19,124 nt of DNA. It comes from Polaromonas sp. GTDB taxonomy: Bacteria > Pseudomonadota > Gammaproteobacteria > Burkholderiales > Burkholderiaceae_C. Location of the stretch: NCBI GenBank assembly GCA_026786065.1, contig JAJAYS010000187.1:1-19124 (forward strand). The letters run 5' to 3'. Of the stretch, positions 3,504 through 19,124 are shown in pieces; position 1 is the first letter of the stretch, and each line of letters opens with the position of its first letter. The position numbers and the translations under genes were made by a program. Under the pieces are notes generated by a model. That model saw nothing but the letters and a program-made list of their open reading frames with translations. It was not told the origin of the DNA and ran no database searches.

Positions 3504-4232
3504 TTATTTCTTGGCGGCCGGCTTGGCTGGCGTCTTGGCAGCAGGCGCACCGGCGGCTGCTTTGGCCGCTGGTTTTGCACCGGCCTTGGCGCCCGACTTG
3601 GCACCGCCCTTGGCCTCTTTTCCGTCGGCAGCAGGCGCGTCGGCGCCTTCAGCCGCAGCCGGATCGACCTCTTCGACAATTGCCGACACCGACACCAGAA
3701 CCGGGTTGTCTTGGCCCTTGGCGACAAACTTCACGCGTTTTGGCAGCTTGATGTCTTTCAGGTGCAGCGGCGCGCCTTTTTTCAGCCCGCTCAGGTCAAC
3801 GTTGATGAATTCGGGGACGTCGGCCGGGAAGCACGACACCGTCAAATCGGTCATCACGTGGTTGACCAGGCAGTTCTCGGTCTTGACTGCCGGGGACTCT
3901 TCCTCGCCGCTGTAATGCAGCGGTACTTTCATCGTCAGGCGGGTGCGCGCCTCGACGCGCTGAAAATCGATGTGCAAAACCTGCTGCTTGTACGGATGCA
4001 TCTGCAAATCGCGCAGCAGCACTTTTTGCTCTTTCCCGGCCAGTTCCATCTCGAGAATGGACGCATGGAAGGCTTCCTTCTTGATGGCATGCCACAGCGC
4101 GTTATGGTCAAGCTCGATCAGGATCGGTTCACCGGTGCCACCGTAAACAATACCGGGCGTACGGCCCGAAACGCGGAGACGGCGGCTCGCACCCGTGCCC
4201 TGCTTGGCGCGCTCAAAAGCGACGAATTTCAT
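3504..4232 (-). CDS. rplY: 50S ribosomal protein L25, long Ctc/TL5 form
   Basis: L25 binds 5S rRNA in the large ribosomal subunit. The N-terminal ~95 residues form the 5S-binding L25 domain, with RGTGASRRLR-like and PGIVYGG segments followed by the LLRDLQMHP-x-K-x-VLHIDFQ signature. The second, TL5/Ctc-type beta domain runs to about residue 190 (VPLHYSGEEESPAVK, LPKRVKFV). The remaining ~50 residues are a low-complexity Ala/Lys/Pro/Gly tail, which makes the protein 242 aa, longer than the two-domain form alone. The start is set by a clear AAGGA (4241-4245), eight bases before the ATG. It lies 102 bp downstream of prs on the same strand, the usual betaproteobacterial order. Confidence 0.95.
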   Translation of the reverse strand: MKFVAFERAKQGTGASRRLRVSGRTPGIVYGGTGEPILIELDHNALWHAIKKEAFHASILEMELAGKEQKVLLRDLQMHPYKQQVLHIDFQRVEARTRLTMKVPLHYSGEEESPAVKTENCLVNHVMTDLTVSCFPADVPEFINVDLSGLKKGAPLHLKDIKLPKRVKFVAKGQDNPVLVSVSAIVEEVDPAAAEGADAPAADGKEAKGGAKSGAKAGAKPAAKAAAGAPAAKTPAKPAAKK

Positions 4233-4334: not shown

Positions 4335-5309
4335 TTAAAACAAGTTGTCCTGCTCCGAAAACAAACTCATGACCGACTCGCCGTTGGCAATGCGCTGAAT
4401 GGTTTCGGCAATCAGCGGTGCGACGGAAAGCTGGCGTATTTTTTTGCAACTCTGGGCAGACGAACTCATCGGAATGGTGTTGGTGATCACCACCTCGTCG
4501 AGCGCCTTGCCCTCGGCGATGCGCTCAAGCGCCGGACCGGAGAACACGGCGTGGGTGCAATACGCATAGACTTTTTTGGCCCCGCGTTCCTTCAGTACCT
4601 CAGCCGCCTTCAGCAAGGTGCCGGCGGTGTCGATCATGTCGTCCATGACCACGCAGTTGCGACCGTCGATGTCGCCAATCACGTGCATCACCTCCGAGAC
4701 GTTGGCCTTGGGCCGACGTTTGTCGATGATGGCCATATCGCAGCCAAGCTGCTTGGCTAGAGCGCGTGCGCGGACCACGCCGCCGACATCGGGCGAGACG
4801 ACCATCAGGTCGGTGTAGTTCTTCAACCGAAGATCACCCAACAGCACCGGCGAGGCGTAGATGTTGTCAACCGGAATGTCGAAAAAACCCTGAATCTGGT
4901 CTGCATGCAGATCCATGGTGAGAACCCGCGACACCCCCACGGCCTGCAGCATGTTGGCGACAACCTTGGCTGTAATGGGTACGCGGGCCGAACGCGGTCG
5001 TCGGTCCTGGCGTGCATAGCCAAAATACGGGATGACGGCGGAAATGCGCTCTGCCGACGCGCGTTTGAGCGCATCGACCATGATCAGCAATTCCATCAGG
5101 TTGTCGTTGGTCGGTGCGCAAGTGGACTGAACCACGAAGACGTCGCGAGCCCGGACGTTTTGCTGGATTTCCACCGTGACTTCACCGTCGGAAAATCGCC
5201 CGACATGTGCCGCGCCAAGTGAAATGCCGAGATGCTCAGCGATCTGGATGGCCATGCTCGGGTTGGCATTGCCAGTGAAAACCATGAAGTCGGGATGGTG
5301 CGTTTGCAT
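4335..5309 (-). CDS. prs: Ribose-phosphate pyrophosphokinase (PRPP synthase)
   Basis: Prs converts ribose-5-phosphate and ATP to PRPP, the precursor of purines, pyrimidines, NAD, histidine and tryptophan. The N-terminus MVFTGNANP, the catalytic-loop segment [10 protein letters not shown], the metal-binding [12 protein letters not shown] and the PRPP-binding loop [13 protein letters not shown] are all present and intact. Length is 324 aa from the ATG at 5309 against 315 in E. coli. The first residues ([16 protein letters not shown]) match the form I know from other Burkholderiales. An upstream in-frame start at 5342 adds 11 residues without support. The gene follows tRNA-Gln and ispE on the same strand, a well-known arrangement in this group. 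No strong ribosome binding site is visible. Confidence 0.96.
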
Positions 5310-16698: not shown

Positions 16699-17700
16699 AT
16701 GCTCGATGACCGTGCCCGATTGCTTTTAAAAGCGCTGGTGGAGCGCTACATTGCCGATGGCCAGCCAGTCGGATCGCGTACCTTATCCAAAGCGTCGGGA
16801 CTTGAGTTGTCGCCTGCAACTATCCGCAATGTGATGAGCGATCTGGAGGCGCTTGGGCTGATCGCCAGCCAGCATACGTCGGCCGGCAGGATTCCTACGG
16901 CCAAGGGATACCGCCTGTTCGTGGACACCATGTTGACGACCAGCCGAGCGCTGTTTGCACCTCCATTCCTCGCTCCCGATCAGCCACAGAAGGTCATAAG
17001 CAATGCAGCGCACATGCTGTCGAGCCTGTCCCGGTTTGTGGGGGTTGTCATGGCTCCGCGACGCAACTCCGTGTTCAGACATATCGAATTCCTTCGGCTG
17101 TCCGAAAGGAGGGTGCTGGTGATTATTGTGTCGCCCGACGGCGATGTTCAGAATCGCGTGATCTTTACCGAAACCGAGCATGCGCAGGCTCAGCTTATCG
17201 AGGCGGCCAATTTTTTGAATCGACACTATTCCGGAATGAATATCGACGAAGTGCGTGAGCGGCTTAAGAGTGAAGTTGAAGCGCTGCGTGGGGAGATTGC
17301 TGTGTTGATGCGTGCGGCTGTCGAGGTCAGTTCCGACGCTATCGAATCACATGAGGAGGTTGTCATTTCCGGCGAGCGCAACTTGCTTGCGGTAGCCGAT
17401 TTTTCCAGGGACATGGATAACTTGCGCAAGCTATTCGATCTCTTCGAGCAGAAGGCCCAGTTGATGCGGCTTCTTGATGTGTCGAGCCAAGCCGAGGGGG
17501 TGCGGATTTATATTGGCGGGGAGAGCGAGGTCATTCCTTACCAGGAACTGTCGGTGGTTACCGCGCCTTATGAGGTCGATGGAAAGGTGGTCGGCACGCT
17601 GGGTGTGATTGGTCCGATGCGAATGCCATATGAGAAGATGATTCAGATTGTGAACATCACATCAAGGCTGGTCAGCTCGGCCCTCAGCCACAGCAAGTAG
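16699..17700 (+). CDS. hrcA: Heat-inducible transcription repressor HrcA
   Basis: HrcA represses groE and dnaK type heat-shock operons by binding CIRCE operators; GroEL keeps it active. The N-terminal winged helix (about residues 1-75) has the family sequence [14 protein letters not shown] and [13 protein letters not shown], with the wing [13 protein letters not shown]. The long effector domain ends in [10 protein letters not shown] and the C-terminal [17 protein letters not shown] segment. The protein is 333 aa, typical. The start [18 protein letters not shown] matches the family, so the ATG at 16699 is kept despite the abutting AAGGAG. An upstream in-frame stop (TAA at 16693) rules out extension. 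In relatives hemH often follows hrcA; here the next genes are tRNA sequences and rearranged DNA. Confidence 0.95.
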
Positions 17701-17731: not shown

Positions 17732-17772
17732 AGGGCGTTAGCTCAGTTGGTCAGAGCAGAGGACTCATAATC
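17732..17772 (+). pseudogene. Intronless 5' half of tRNA-Ile2 (CAT), truncated relic
   Basis: Forty-one bases match tRNA positions 1-40: an acceptor 5' strand (AGGGCGT), TA, D arm GCTC...GAGC, anticodon stem GAGGA and loop CTCATAA followed by TC. Bases 17736-17765 equal 18007-18036 of the intact tRNA at 29 of 30 positions. The sequence then diverges within the 3' anticodon stem, and no T arm or acceptor 3' strand follows in the next 200 bases. It reads CTCATAATC without interruption, i.e. like the spliced or intron-free tRNA. It cannot make a functional tRNA alone and probably is an integration or recombination scar. Confidence 0.8.
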
Positions 17773-18002
17773 AATGGTTCTGCAAAGAATTTTTGAAATT
17801 GACTTTGCTGCGAGGCTAAGGGTAAGCGAATTAAGTTGTTGATATTGAAGGGCTTTTTTGAATTTATCGAGAATTCCTTTCAATTTGATGCAGTTGCGAG
17901 ATTTTGACAGGTCAGAAGATTGCAACCGTATTGCAACCAGCAGTGAGTGAAGTCGATAGATCGTCAGTGATCTGCGATGCTCAATGTTGGTGAAAAAGTT
18001 TT
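17773..18002. other. AT-rich segment between the tRNA half and the split tRNA
   Basis: These 230 bp are clearly richer in A and T than the flanking housekeeping genes, and have no credible gene (short frames lack ribosome binding sites and recognisable protein character). They contain a direct repeat ATTGCAACC at 17919-17927 and 17930-17938, 11 bp apart, and then the split tRNA. The layout, tRNA fragment plus foreign-looking DNA plus full tRNA, resembles what remains of a tRNA-targeting integrative element. Confidence 0.45.
17919..17938 (+). repeat. Two direct ATTGCAACC repeats, 11-bp period
   Basis: ATTGCAACC occurs at 17919-17927 and again at 17930-17938. The one-helical-turn period is typical of arm-type sites bound by tyrosine integrases near attachment sites, but other tandem binding proteins would give the same spacing. 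The repeat is certain; its role is inferred. Confidence 0.6.
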
Positions 18003-18323
18003 GGGCCGTTAGCTCAGTTGGTTAGAGCAGAGGACTTAAAATGAAGAAACCTAAACGCGAAAGCGCATGGTTTTTTTAAAATGGGTTGCACTGGGTAAGT
18101 TAACTCTGCCTGGATGTAGAACTTCTCAAAGTCGGTGAAAGCTTAGGTGTTAAAAGCGCCATGCCAATACCGAGCGAAGCTCCGAAAGGAGAACGTGTAG
18201 AGACTCGACGGGAAGGCCGAAAGGCAAGATAGAGTCCAGACCACAAACCGGAAACGGGCGGCGAAAGTCGAAGTGGTAAGCATAATCCTTTGGTCGACAG
18301 TTCAAGTCTGTCACGGCCTACCA
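18003..18323 (+). tRNA. tRNA-Ile2 (anticodon CAT), interrupted by a group I intron
   Basis: Exons 18003-18036 and 18281-18323 join to a perfect 77-nt cloverleaf: acceptor GGGCCGT/ACGGCCT, U8-A9, D stem GCTC/GAGC, anticodon stem GAGGA/TCCTT, loop CTCATAA, variable loop of five, T stem GACAG/CTGTC with TTCAAGT, A73 and encoded CCA. The CAT anticodon with CTCATAATC and acceptor shape resembles E. coli ileX rather than initiator or elongator Met. In such tRNAs C34 is changed to lysidine by TilS so that AUA is read as Ile. The exon boundary is unique: base 18037 is T, not C, and the base before 18281 is G, not T. So the split is between U33 and C34. The gene is essential in bacteria of this type, so efficient splicing is implied. 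Confidence 0.93.
18037..18280 (+). ncRNA. Group I self-splicing intron in tRNA-Ile2 (244 nt, no ORF)
   Basis: The 5' exon ends in U and the intron ends in G, as group I introns require. Pairings read directly: P3 CTTCTC (18122-18127) with GGGAAG (18210-18215); P4 TCGGT (18132-18136) with ACCGA (18169-18173); P5 GGTGT (18146-18150) with GCGCC (18156-18160). P6 is CTCC-GAAA-GGAG (18180-18191), P7 GACTC (18202-18206) with GAGTC (18232-18236), P8 GCC-GAAA-GGC (18216-18225), and P9-region hairpins CCG-GAAA-CGG and GGC-GAAA-GTC follow. Two stem-loops have GNRA loops usable as tertiary contacts. The best internal guide is GGTTTTT at 18069-18075, pairing with the exon end GAGGACT with a U-G at the splice site. 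The P7 neighbourhood (GTAGAGACT, then GACGG) resembles the Azoarcus tRNA-Ile ribozyme as I remember it. No homing endonuclease is encoded. Confidence 0.9.
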
Positions 18324-18331
18324 AAACGTTC

Positions 18332-18361
18332 AGAAGCCACCTTAGGGTGGCTTCTTTTTTT
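18332..18361 (+). terminator. Strong rho-independent terminator after tRNA-Ile2
   Basis: A perfect stem AGAAGCCACC/GGTGGCTTCT (18332-18341 and 18346-18355) with a four-base loop is followed by a run of Ts to 18361. It starts nine bases after the CCA end and would end the tRNA precursor transcript. Confidence 0.92.
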
Positions 18362-18366
18362 CTGGC

Positions 18367-18725
18367 TTACTTCTGTATGAATTCGAGGGCATCGCTGACC
18401 GGCGCGGCACGCTGCTTGTCATCACCGCCGTAGCCCATTGGCTTGTGCTGCACATAACCTTTTTTCGATTGAATAAGAGTTGCAAATTTAGGCTGGCAAA
18501 TCACGTTCCGCAGATTGGGTTTAGATACCGCCGTCTTGGATCGTGACCTTCGATGTGCCTCAGAAAGTCCGGTACGTCTCGCGGGGCCGTTGCATCCATT
18601 GCCAGCGCAGTCTTCGGCAACCATGCGCCAGCAAGCGTTACCAACCCTAATTTCAACAACGACCGGCGTGCCACATCAGGATTAAACGGCAATGACTCGG
18701 GACTAGTTTGTGAATTGGTTTGCAT
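18367..18725 (-). pseudogene. Small Tat-signal protein, apparently frameshifted
   Basis: From the ATG at 18725, the first 62 residues include a twin-arginine signal: ARRSLLKLG at about 19-27, then a hydrophobic stretch and a TALA cleavage-like site near residue 41. They continue with a short mature part, DATAPRDVPDFLRHIEGHD. This frame then gives PRRRYLNPICGT and stops at 18501. Another frame, open across the same point (around 18540), continues with a plausible sequence (KFATLIQSKKGYVQHKPMGYGGDD) to a stop at 18367, just short of the tRNA terminator. A single indel would join them into a protein of about 119 aa. Family not recognised. It may instead be an intact 74-aa protein; I favour a broken gene or a sequence error. 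Such Tat proteins bind cofactors or partners that are exported folded. Confidence 0.45.
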
Positions 18726-18739
18726 CGGTAGTCCTTGGT

Positions 18740-18982
18740 TTATTGTGAAAATCGGTCAGGTTCGTTGCTTTTGGTCGAAACCAGATTGCATGCGGAAGGC
18801 TTCAAGTTCTGGATGCGCCGACACTCGGATGCCAGCATTAGGCAGTAACCGCTTAGGTCGCCAAGCTCAGAGATCAGCCAGCCCACCGCTTCCACACTTT
18901 CAGCACCAACCGTTGCGTCTGCGATTACGGGTGATGAATGCGCAATCAGGTGTCCAACCGCCGCCATTCCGTTTTGGCACAC
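18740..18982 (-). CDS. Small hypothetical protein, start uncertain
   Basis: An 80-codon frame from a GTG at 18982 (an ATG follows five codons later) with a plausible amphipathic helical core (AESVEAVGWLISELGDLSGYCLMLASECRRI). Family not recognised. The frame stays open about 90 bases further upstream without a usable start. A neighbouring frame beginning at an ATG at 19076 reads MKHSFLPNLV and could be the original N-terminus if an indel lies near 18990-19010. It is 14 bp upstream of the Tat protein gene on the same strand, so the two could have been one transcription unit. No Shine-Dalgarno sequence was found. Low confidence; it may be a gene remnant. Confidence 0.3.
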   Translation of the reverse strand: MCQNGMAAVGHLIAHSSPVIADATVGAESVEAVGWLISELGDLSGYCLMLASECRRIQNLKPSACNLVSTKSNEPDRFSQ

Positions 18983-19074
18983 AAGAAGTGGCTCGACAAA
19001 TCTGAACAGCGAGATAAGTGGAAACTCTGACGTATTTGGCCTGACTGACGAGGTTGGGCAAGAAGGAGTGTTTC

Positions 19075-19124
19075 ATGGTCAAGCTGAGAAAGAAAGCGGC
19101 TGTCGTACGGCGCGTACGCAGGCA
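19075..19124 (+). CDS. Start of an unidentified gene, cut by the window end
   Basis: ATG at 19075 is preceded at ideal distance (six bases) by a perfect AAGGAG (19063-19068), the best ribosome binding site in this part of the window. Only 16 codons are visible, reading MVKLRKKAAVVRRVRR: very basic, as in an N-terminal signal or nucleic-acid-binding protein. No function can be assigned. Confidence 0.45.
   Translation, partial: MVKLRKKAAVVRRVRR

Follow-up and report, generated by a model that had tools for sequence, protein, structure and literature searches.

A group I intron in the anticodon loop of a tRNA-Ile2 gene at the probable left end of an integrative element

We analysed a 19,124-nucleotide stretch of Polaromonas sp. 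DNA (contig JAJAYS010000187.1; hereafter, the window) and found a tRNA-Ile2(CAU) gene that is split by a group I intron and lies 230 bp downstream of the broken half of another tRNA-Ile2 gene. We consider it likely that an integrative element has inserted into the anticodon loop of the host tRNA-Ile2 and that the window shows its left end, with a replacement gene that would splice itself and that its intron may shield. The features are listed below; a slash marks a splice junction.

16699..17700, + strand: hrcA, the host-side neighbour of tRNA-Ile2 (NCBIfam TIGR00331, 301.7 bits)
17732..17772, + strand: 5′ half of the original intronless tRNA-Ile2 (attL, host side), cut in the anticodon loop after CATAATC
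17764..17770, + strand: CTCATAA, the 7-bp core, anticodon loop C32-A38, from the att junctions of 10 relatives
17773..18002, + strand: element arm between the split half and the replacement tRNA, with putative integrase arm sites
18003-18323, + strand: tRNA-Ile2(CAU) gene, split at U33/C34 by a 244-nt group I intron
18003..18036, + strand: 5′ exon of the replacement tRNA-Ile2, ending GGACU (U33)
18037..18280, + strand: group I intron, class A (U33/C34), 244 nt, first base U and last base G
18081..18087, + strand: internal guide sequence AUG/GGUU, which fits the GACU/CAU junction
18122..18127, + strand: 5′ strand of P3, CUUCUC (partner GGGAAG at 18210-18215); 100% paired, changed on both sides at 3 of 6 pairs
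18202..18206, + strand: 5′ strand of P7, GACUC (partner GAGUC at 18232-18236); 100% paired
18281..18323, + strand: 3′ exon of the replacement tRNA-Ile2, starting C34 A35 U36 and ending CCA
18332..18355, + strand: intrinsic terminator-like hairpin 3′ of the tRNA (consensus match only)
18360..19124, no strand assigned: start of the element cargo to the contig end, similar to a Rhodoferax element up to 18452 (blastn)

The intron-bearing tRNA-Ile2 gene of the window

The preliminary description of this DNA had placed a group I intron in tRNA-Ile2 at these positions. It proved right on the exon and intron ends. For the joined exons ARAGORN returned a 77-nt CAT tRNA (labelled Met). The five listed E. 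coli matches of this tRNA are all annotated as tRNA-Ile; by its CAU anticodon, its cloverleaf and its closest annotated relatives, the tRNA is tRNA-Ile2(CAU). Consensus matching was the sole basis for the promoter, terminator and repeat results; it gave no promoter-like site.

The splice junction is fixed at U33/C34 because the guide sequence AUG/GGUU is complementary to GACU/CAU. Its AUG (18081-18083) matches the CAU of the 3′ exon in P10, and its GGUU (18084-18087) matches the GACU of the 5′ exon in P1, with a U33·G pair. This fit bore out the preliminary assignment of a site three bases upstream of that in Azoarcus. We rejected a splice site one base later, which would give a UAU anticodon: the intron would then end in C rather than G, and the fit to the guide sequence would be lost.

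The genome contains tilS, and in the assembly, which is 83.6% complete, a pattern search allowing up to 3 mismatches found no further tRNA-Ile2 3′ half; splicing is therefore probably needed. On the unspliced window, ARAGORN missed the intron-bearing gene. The absence of tRNA-Ile2 from such genomes may therefore be apparent only, since ARAGORN as run here misses the gene and the Rfam match lies below the gathering score.

Ribozyme structure and covariation

The search with the group I covariance model that the preliminary description had proposed gave a match to RF00028 at 18028-18261, across the full model, with an E value of 6.3e-6 but a score of 30.8 bits, below the gathering score of 50, which is a threshold and not a structural feature; a default scan was negative. 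The minimum free energy of the gene had a z-score of -2.84, and 1 of 100 shuffles folded equally well or better.

We drew a 71-pair group I structure on the window sequence, with P3 and P10 as separate bracket kinds, and followed it through 37 related introns with the same junction (from 41 references; L114, L115, L123 and L126 were left out). Across these introns 93.7% of the 2602 cells pair, compared with 81.4% in shuffles and 33-42% with slid partners. Changes on both sides occur in 37 of the 71 pairs, and none of 500 shuffles reached any of the five measures. Core pairing and covariation are strongly above chance, in a set of sequences that are related and with a structure that was drawn on the window. 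P3, P4, P6 and P7 are 100% paired and P8 99.1%. Every one of these helices has one or more pairs in which both sides have changed, as had been anticipated for P3 and P7. P3 alternates among relatives between a type with CUUCUC and GGGAAG and one with CUGGUC and GGCCAG. Four of the five P7 pairs are invariant, and the last is A-U, C-G or G-C.

P1 pairs in 37/37 introns, with U33·G in 37/37, and gives no covariation evidence because it never varies. P10 is paired in 90.1% of cells, its middle pair missing in 8 of the 37, and a GGGUUGC block is invariant throughout. The window intron has both the U·G pair at the 5′ splice site and the terminal G. By sequence and structure, these data confirm the insert as a group I intron, which would be expected to splice itself.

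A split host gene upstream

The split tRNA half at 17732-17772 was absent from the preliminary description. It retains an intact anticodon and follows hrcA; in a genome of the same genus (G028, locus L031), an intact tRNA-Ile2 comes straight after the end of hrcA, which was identified by eye. The acceptor strand of the half, AGGGCGT, pairs 7/7 with ACGCCCT, a kind of 3′ strand known from relatives, and 6/7 with the 3′ strand of the intron-bearing tRNA. The half and the intron-bearing tRNA differ in 2 of 7 acceptor bases, which suggests that the latter was imported into this locus. We also considered whether the half could be the start of an intron gene of its own, and rejected this: the next 3′ half belongs to the gene that has a complete 5′ exon.

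Window positions 17733-18452, spanning the split half, the arm region, the intron-bearing tRNA and the start of the cargo, are 83.6% identical to the left end of a 26-kb element in Rhodoferax (G102). A direct repeat, ATTGCAACC, occurs in the arm at 17919-17927 and 17930-17938 and also in the Rhodoferax element, where a dienelactone-hydrolase-family gene follows (Pfam DLH, L165:2124-3347). Only the left att junction is visible in the window. The contig ends 0.8 kb past the tRNA, and the bin, 83.6% complete, yielded neither the displaced 3′ half nor any relative of the G102 integrase; we therefore infer the identity of the window copy from its close homology to G102. Most likely the window shows one end, the left, of an integrative element whose insertion splits tRNA-Ile2 and which brings its own intron-bearing replacement gene.

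Split tRNA-Ile2 loci in relatives

A clear half accompanies an intron-bearing tRNA at 12 loci: the window, G022, G091, G101, G102, G103, G108, G195, G253, G329, G378 and G460. At 10 of these we found the displaced 3′ half, with other sequence before it. Seven lie on the same contig, 2.5-60 kb downstream (G253, 2.5 kb; G378, 8 kb; G460, 20.5 kb; G102, 26 kb; G091, 32 kb; G108, 34 kb; and G101, 60 kb, with two successive elements), and complete elements can be read from the sequence. Three lie on another contig and are not linked (G195, G329 and G103). No 3′ half was found for the window or G022. When the host 5′ and 3′ halves were joined, ARAGORN returned a CAT tRNA in 10/10 cases. The shared att cores of these 10 relatives are short (7-13 bp) and have CTCATAA in common, which in the element family of the window is lengthened to GACTCATAATC; the host tRNA is not rebuilt. 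The intron-bearing tRNA-Ile2 lies about 145-235 bp inside attL. The intron occurs at one of two sites, U33/C34 (class A) or U36/A37 (class B), and both fall inside the 7-bp core.

Integrases were sought by phmmer with four proteins as well as by family matches. A tyrosine integrase would be expected on an element of this kind, and integrase-like genes were recognised at five split loci (G102, G101, G091, G108 and G329). Those of G102 (Pfam) and G101 (NCBIfam domains) lie beside attR. The G091 gene lies near the intron-bearing tRNA and matches a PHROG integrase family with no Pfam match; phmmer found its relatives in G108 and G329, both without an NCBIfam match. None was recognised with the four queries in G460, G378 or G253.

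Comamonas testosteroni (G101) has two successive insertions, whose replacements are one of class A and one of class B, and a single element arm is shared by a class B tRNA in G253 and a class A tRNA in G195. In G195, G253 and G101 the replacement and the split half are clearly different types of tRNA-Ile2. Two split halves follow one another in G108, and the second reads like a replacement without an intron that was split in its turn. In the G022 bin (contamination 4%) an occupied and an empty allele are both present, identical over the 79 leading bases. G006, with a degenerate half, and G105, with a decayed att site 1.5 kb downstream, are imperfect cases that look like older remnants.

Across 399 genomes of the order, one pattern identified 9 halves, spread over 8 genomes, after 3 class B introns were removed by reading; it misses halves with C as the third base after CATAA, and G253 and G195 were found by another route. 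By a second route, a half was found within about 450 bp upstream of 8 of 28 intron genes in the order sample. Among 71 class A candidates, of which the pattern sees 64, three other loci have a half broken in the anticodon loop (L077, by reading, L082 and L086). The first pattern for upstream halves was blind to shorter D loops, and in a repeat count a stem pattern recognised the locus's own exon in 65 of 72 cases, the window included; in 59 of these, 600 bases or more lie upstream. Most class A introns are thus not beside a split gene, so the intron needs no element, and masking of an integration site is not its general reason.

The replacement bears an intron in 5 of the 7 split-gene genomes in which this could be determined, compared with 23 of 391 others (Fisher 2.3e-5, or 2.3e-4 without the window); this test ignores kinship, with G091 and G460 sharing a genus and an att arm, and it relies on an incomplete half pattern that misses some breaks.

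Related arrangements were seen elsewhere. In G435 (C1:1571265-1571498) and G418 (C8:12760-12955) a split half is followed by an intronless replacement, and no displaced 3′ half was found in either genome; this is perhaps a scar left after element loss. In G028 (L046, minus strand), a tRNA-Leu-like 5′ half at about 4119-4159, whose last bases are GGGACTTAAAATC, precedes an intron-bearing tRNA-Leu(UAA) at about 4350-4675. This looks like the same arrangement in another tRNA; its displaced 3′ half was not seen within the 8-kb piece. In a member of the Nitrosomonadales (L103, minus strand, 5′ tRNA at about 2560), the break in the tRNA-Ile2 upstream of a class A gene falls in the T loop and not in the anticodon loop, as though a different integrase subsite had been used. 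In G036 (C1:2411113) and G045 (C5:1151096 and 1124995), which belong to the same genus, tRNA-Ile2 is intact and extra 3′ halves lie downstream, as in classical islands. Both styles of integration seem to occur at tRNA-Ile2.

Distribution and phylogeny of tRNA-Ile2 introns

A pattern for the U33/C34 3′ junction matched 71 genome loci and 7 viral contigs, and 71 of these 78 loci (65 genome, 6 viral) have a candidate 5′ exon. Of the seven without one, six have 241 or fewer bases upstream, and L068 lacks a tRNA 3′ half; the fuzzy match at L079 is doubtful, and at L077 the script picked the upstream split half. Class A hosts include Accumulibacter, Comamonadaceae, Lautropia, Opitutaceae, Planctomycetota and Acidobacteriota. 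Within the order of the window, a pattern of intron core and tRNA-Ile2 3′ exon was present in at least 28 of 399 genomes. The Azoarcus position, U36/A37, also occurs there: 18 of the 28 classified sites are class A and 10 are class B, with 1 of 29 sites (L223) unclassified.

We built a tree from 88 distinct cores, reduced from 95; six introns were left out for motif or length, and six more (L063, L077, L079, L091, L099 and L131) by length or end filters. Class B (13 rows) forms one clade at 100/100, and class A lies outside it. The preliminary description had envisaged independent insertion or re-targeting of a related ribozyme. A separate history is supported by the class B clade; re-targeting from an Azoarcus-type intron is not supported, and we rejected a simple 3-base shift of such an intron. 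The U33/C34 label needs two changes on the tree, so class A may have two origins; several branches are long and the deep joins are unsure. The Opitutaceae class A introns stand apart and branch with tRNA-Leu introns (support 82/63; three Leu introns in the tree). The P9 domain of class A resembles that of tRNA-Leu(UAA) introns, and the 5′ domain is different. Two genomes of the genus to which the window belongs (G000 and G001) have class A introns of different sub-lineages.

The seven viral contigs with the class A 3′ junction (L128-L134) are 17-257 kb long, and six have a candidate 5′ exon. The intron end also has a match in the 595-kb record of an uncultured phage (LR756511.1, 409213-409274). 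Phages thus carry such tRNA genes; blastn against phages gave partial matches only, none covering 80% of the query. At 1433-1731 of the conjugative enterobacterial plasmid pCTX-M3 (L266, NC_004464.2), a group I intron splits a tRNA-Leu-like gene that is missing from the annotation. A blastn search with the window gene matched 1274 plasmid records, 1261 of them at 60-80% identity; the 20 among the matches listed all cover query positions 114-276.

A model for integration and its alternatives

In the model that we favour, integration at CTCATAA, within the longer family core, would leave the host gene as a dead 5′ half at 17732-17772, with the host 3′ half past the contig end. The element would supply a complete replacement tRNA-Ile2, its anticodon loop split at U33/C34 by the intron. 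The ribozyme would pair GACU/CAU with AUG/GGUU, cut after U33 with guanosine and ligate U33 to C34, giving exons that read GGACU/CAUAAUCC; TilS would then modify C34 of the mature tRNA. Because the intron interrupts the core, the replacement would be no att site in DNA and yet a normal tRNA in RNA, shielded from its own integrase and from others that use the same site.

More generally, elements that split tRNA genes may have adopted group I introns as a masking device against the integrase, with self-splicing restoring the tRNA. We hold this tentatively, at somewhat less than an even chance; it is suggested by the position of both intron sites inside the 7-bp core, by the excess of introns in replacement genes and by the intronless pair of loci without a 3′ half. 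These observations count against the idea that elements needing a spare tRNA-Ile2 took copies that were already intron-bearing, the intron being neutral cargo that spreads with the tRNA; the last of them, two intronless cases set against the 3′ halves at 10 of 12 clear intron-bearing split loci, could stem from small numbers, shared ancestry and detection bias. Such hitchhiking explains much of the data, and its chances seem to us close to even: class A introns are common without a nearby split half (Accumulibacter, Opitutaceae and Planctomycetes), the elements of G435 and G418 have intronless replacements, and phage contigs also bear intron-containing tRNAs. It is unlikely, in our estimate, that the intron moved alone, by reverse splicing or homing after retargeting from another tRNA such as tRNA-Leu(UAA). 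The resemblance of the class A 3′ domain to tRNA-Leu introns and the branching of the Opitutaceae introns with them favour such movement, but only three Leu introns anchor that weakly supported join, and in several elements the difference from the split host gene extends to the entire tRNA, which points to import of the gene rather than of the intron alone. Self-movement concerns the older origin of class A and is compatible with the element model.

Two further readings of the window seem very improbable. The spacing of the two tRNA-Ile2 sequences would suit a chromosomal intron-bearing gene that was doubled in tandem, one copy decaying to a 5′ half with no element involved. We rejected this because many loci break after CATAA, CATAATC or nearby with differing sequence beyond, because complementary 3′ halves lie kilobases downstream with other sequence before them, because integrase-like genes occur at five split loci, and because the half and the intron-bearing tRNA have different acceptors, at 2 of 7 bases in the window and clearly so in G195, G253 and G101. 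We give as little credence to a regulatory intron whose slow splicing gates the supply of lysidine tRNA and the decoding of AUA, as the preliminary description had suggested. The presence of tilS and the lack of another tRNA-Ile2 in the assembly would fit such a role, but we saw no regulatory feature, and the assembly is incomplete.

If the masking reading is true, the intron would guard the spare gene against self-integration and superinsertion and would stabilise the element. Masking would also account for the persistence in anticodon loops of introns that lack homing endonucleases, and for the presence of two intron lineages at two positions of one 7-bp core. Bacterial tRNA group I introns, often viewed as neutral passengers, would then have a selective reason, their spread would be possible without a homing endonuclease, and a ribozyme-based step of self-protection would join tRNA-dependent integration. 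The idea that split genes escape integration would become directly testable with one integrase and two substrates.

Comparison with known systems

The Azoarcus tRNA-Ile(CAU) intron, which we take to have its junction after CAU (U36/A37) and a GUG guide, resides in the same tRNA and is the same type of ribozyme as the window intron, and class B relatives share its junction. The window intron differs in its U33/C34 site, extended P1/P2, tRNA-Leu-like P9 domain and short P8, and it falls outside the class B clade. CAU is given as the in vivo triplet (PMC6274277). Group I introns in tRNA-Ile2 are reported from Acidovorax and Burkholderia (tRNAscan-SE 2.0, PMC8450103), the same tRNA in the same order; the relevant passage names no insertion site, element or split gene.

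The split tRNA-Ile2 elements appear to follow the same integration logic as the tRNA-dependent lysogeny of actinobacterial phages, which includes tRNA-Ile2 with 9-10 bp cores (Guerrero-Bustamante & Hatfull 2024, PMC10865867). In the text of that paper the word intron occurs once, in a reference title, so that a phage tRNA intron appears to be undescribed there, whereas in the present elements a group I intron often splits the replacement within the core. There is weak evidence that a group I intron in a replacement tRNA, inside the att core, is new, its parts being known separately: neither the combination of a group I intron with tRNA-dependent integration nor the U33/C34 site was recognised among the matches listed, in a search that took in few subscription papers. 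The T loop of tmRNA, a gene often used by islands for integration, likewise has group I introns at several subsites of one loop; the difference is the T loop of tmRNA itself, and replacement genes borne by elements are absent from the passages available (PMC11915505).

Disruption of tRNA genes has been proposed as protection against the integration of mobile elements (Randau & Soll, cited in PMC4390854). As far as that citing text conveys it, the logic is alike in that a split gene is no target, and their case concerns disrupted archaeal tRNA genes; here, by contrast, a ribozyme within the spare gene that the mobile element itself carries would provide the protection.
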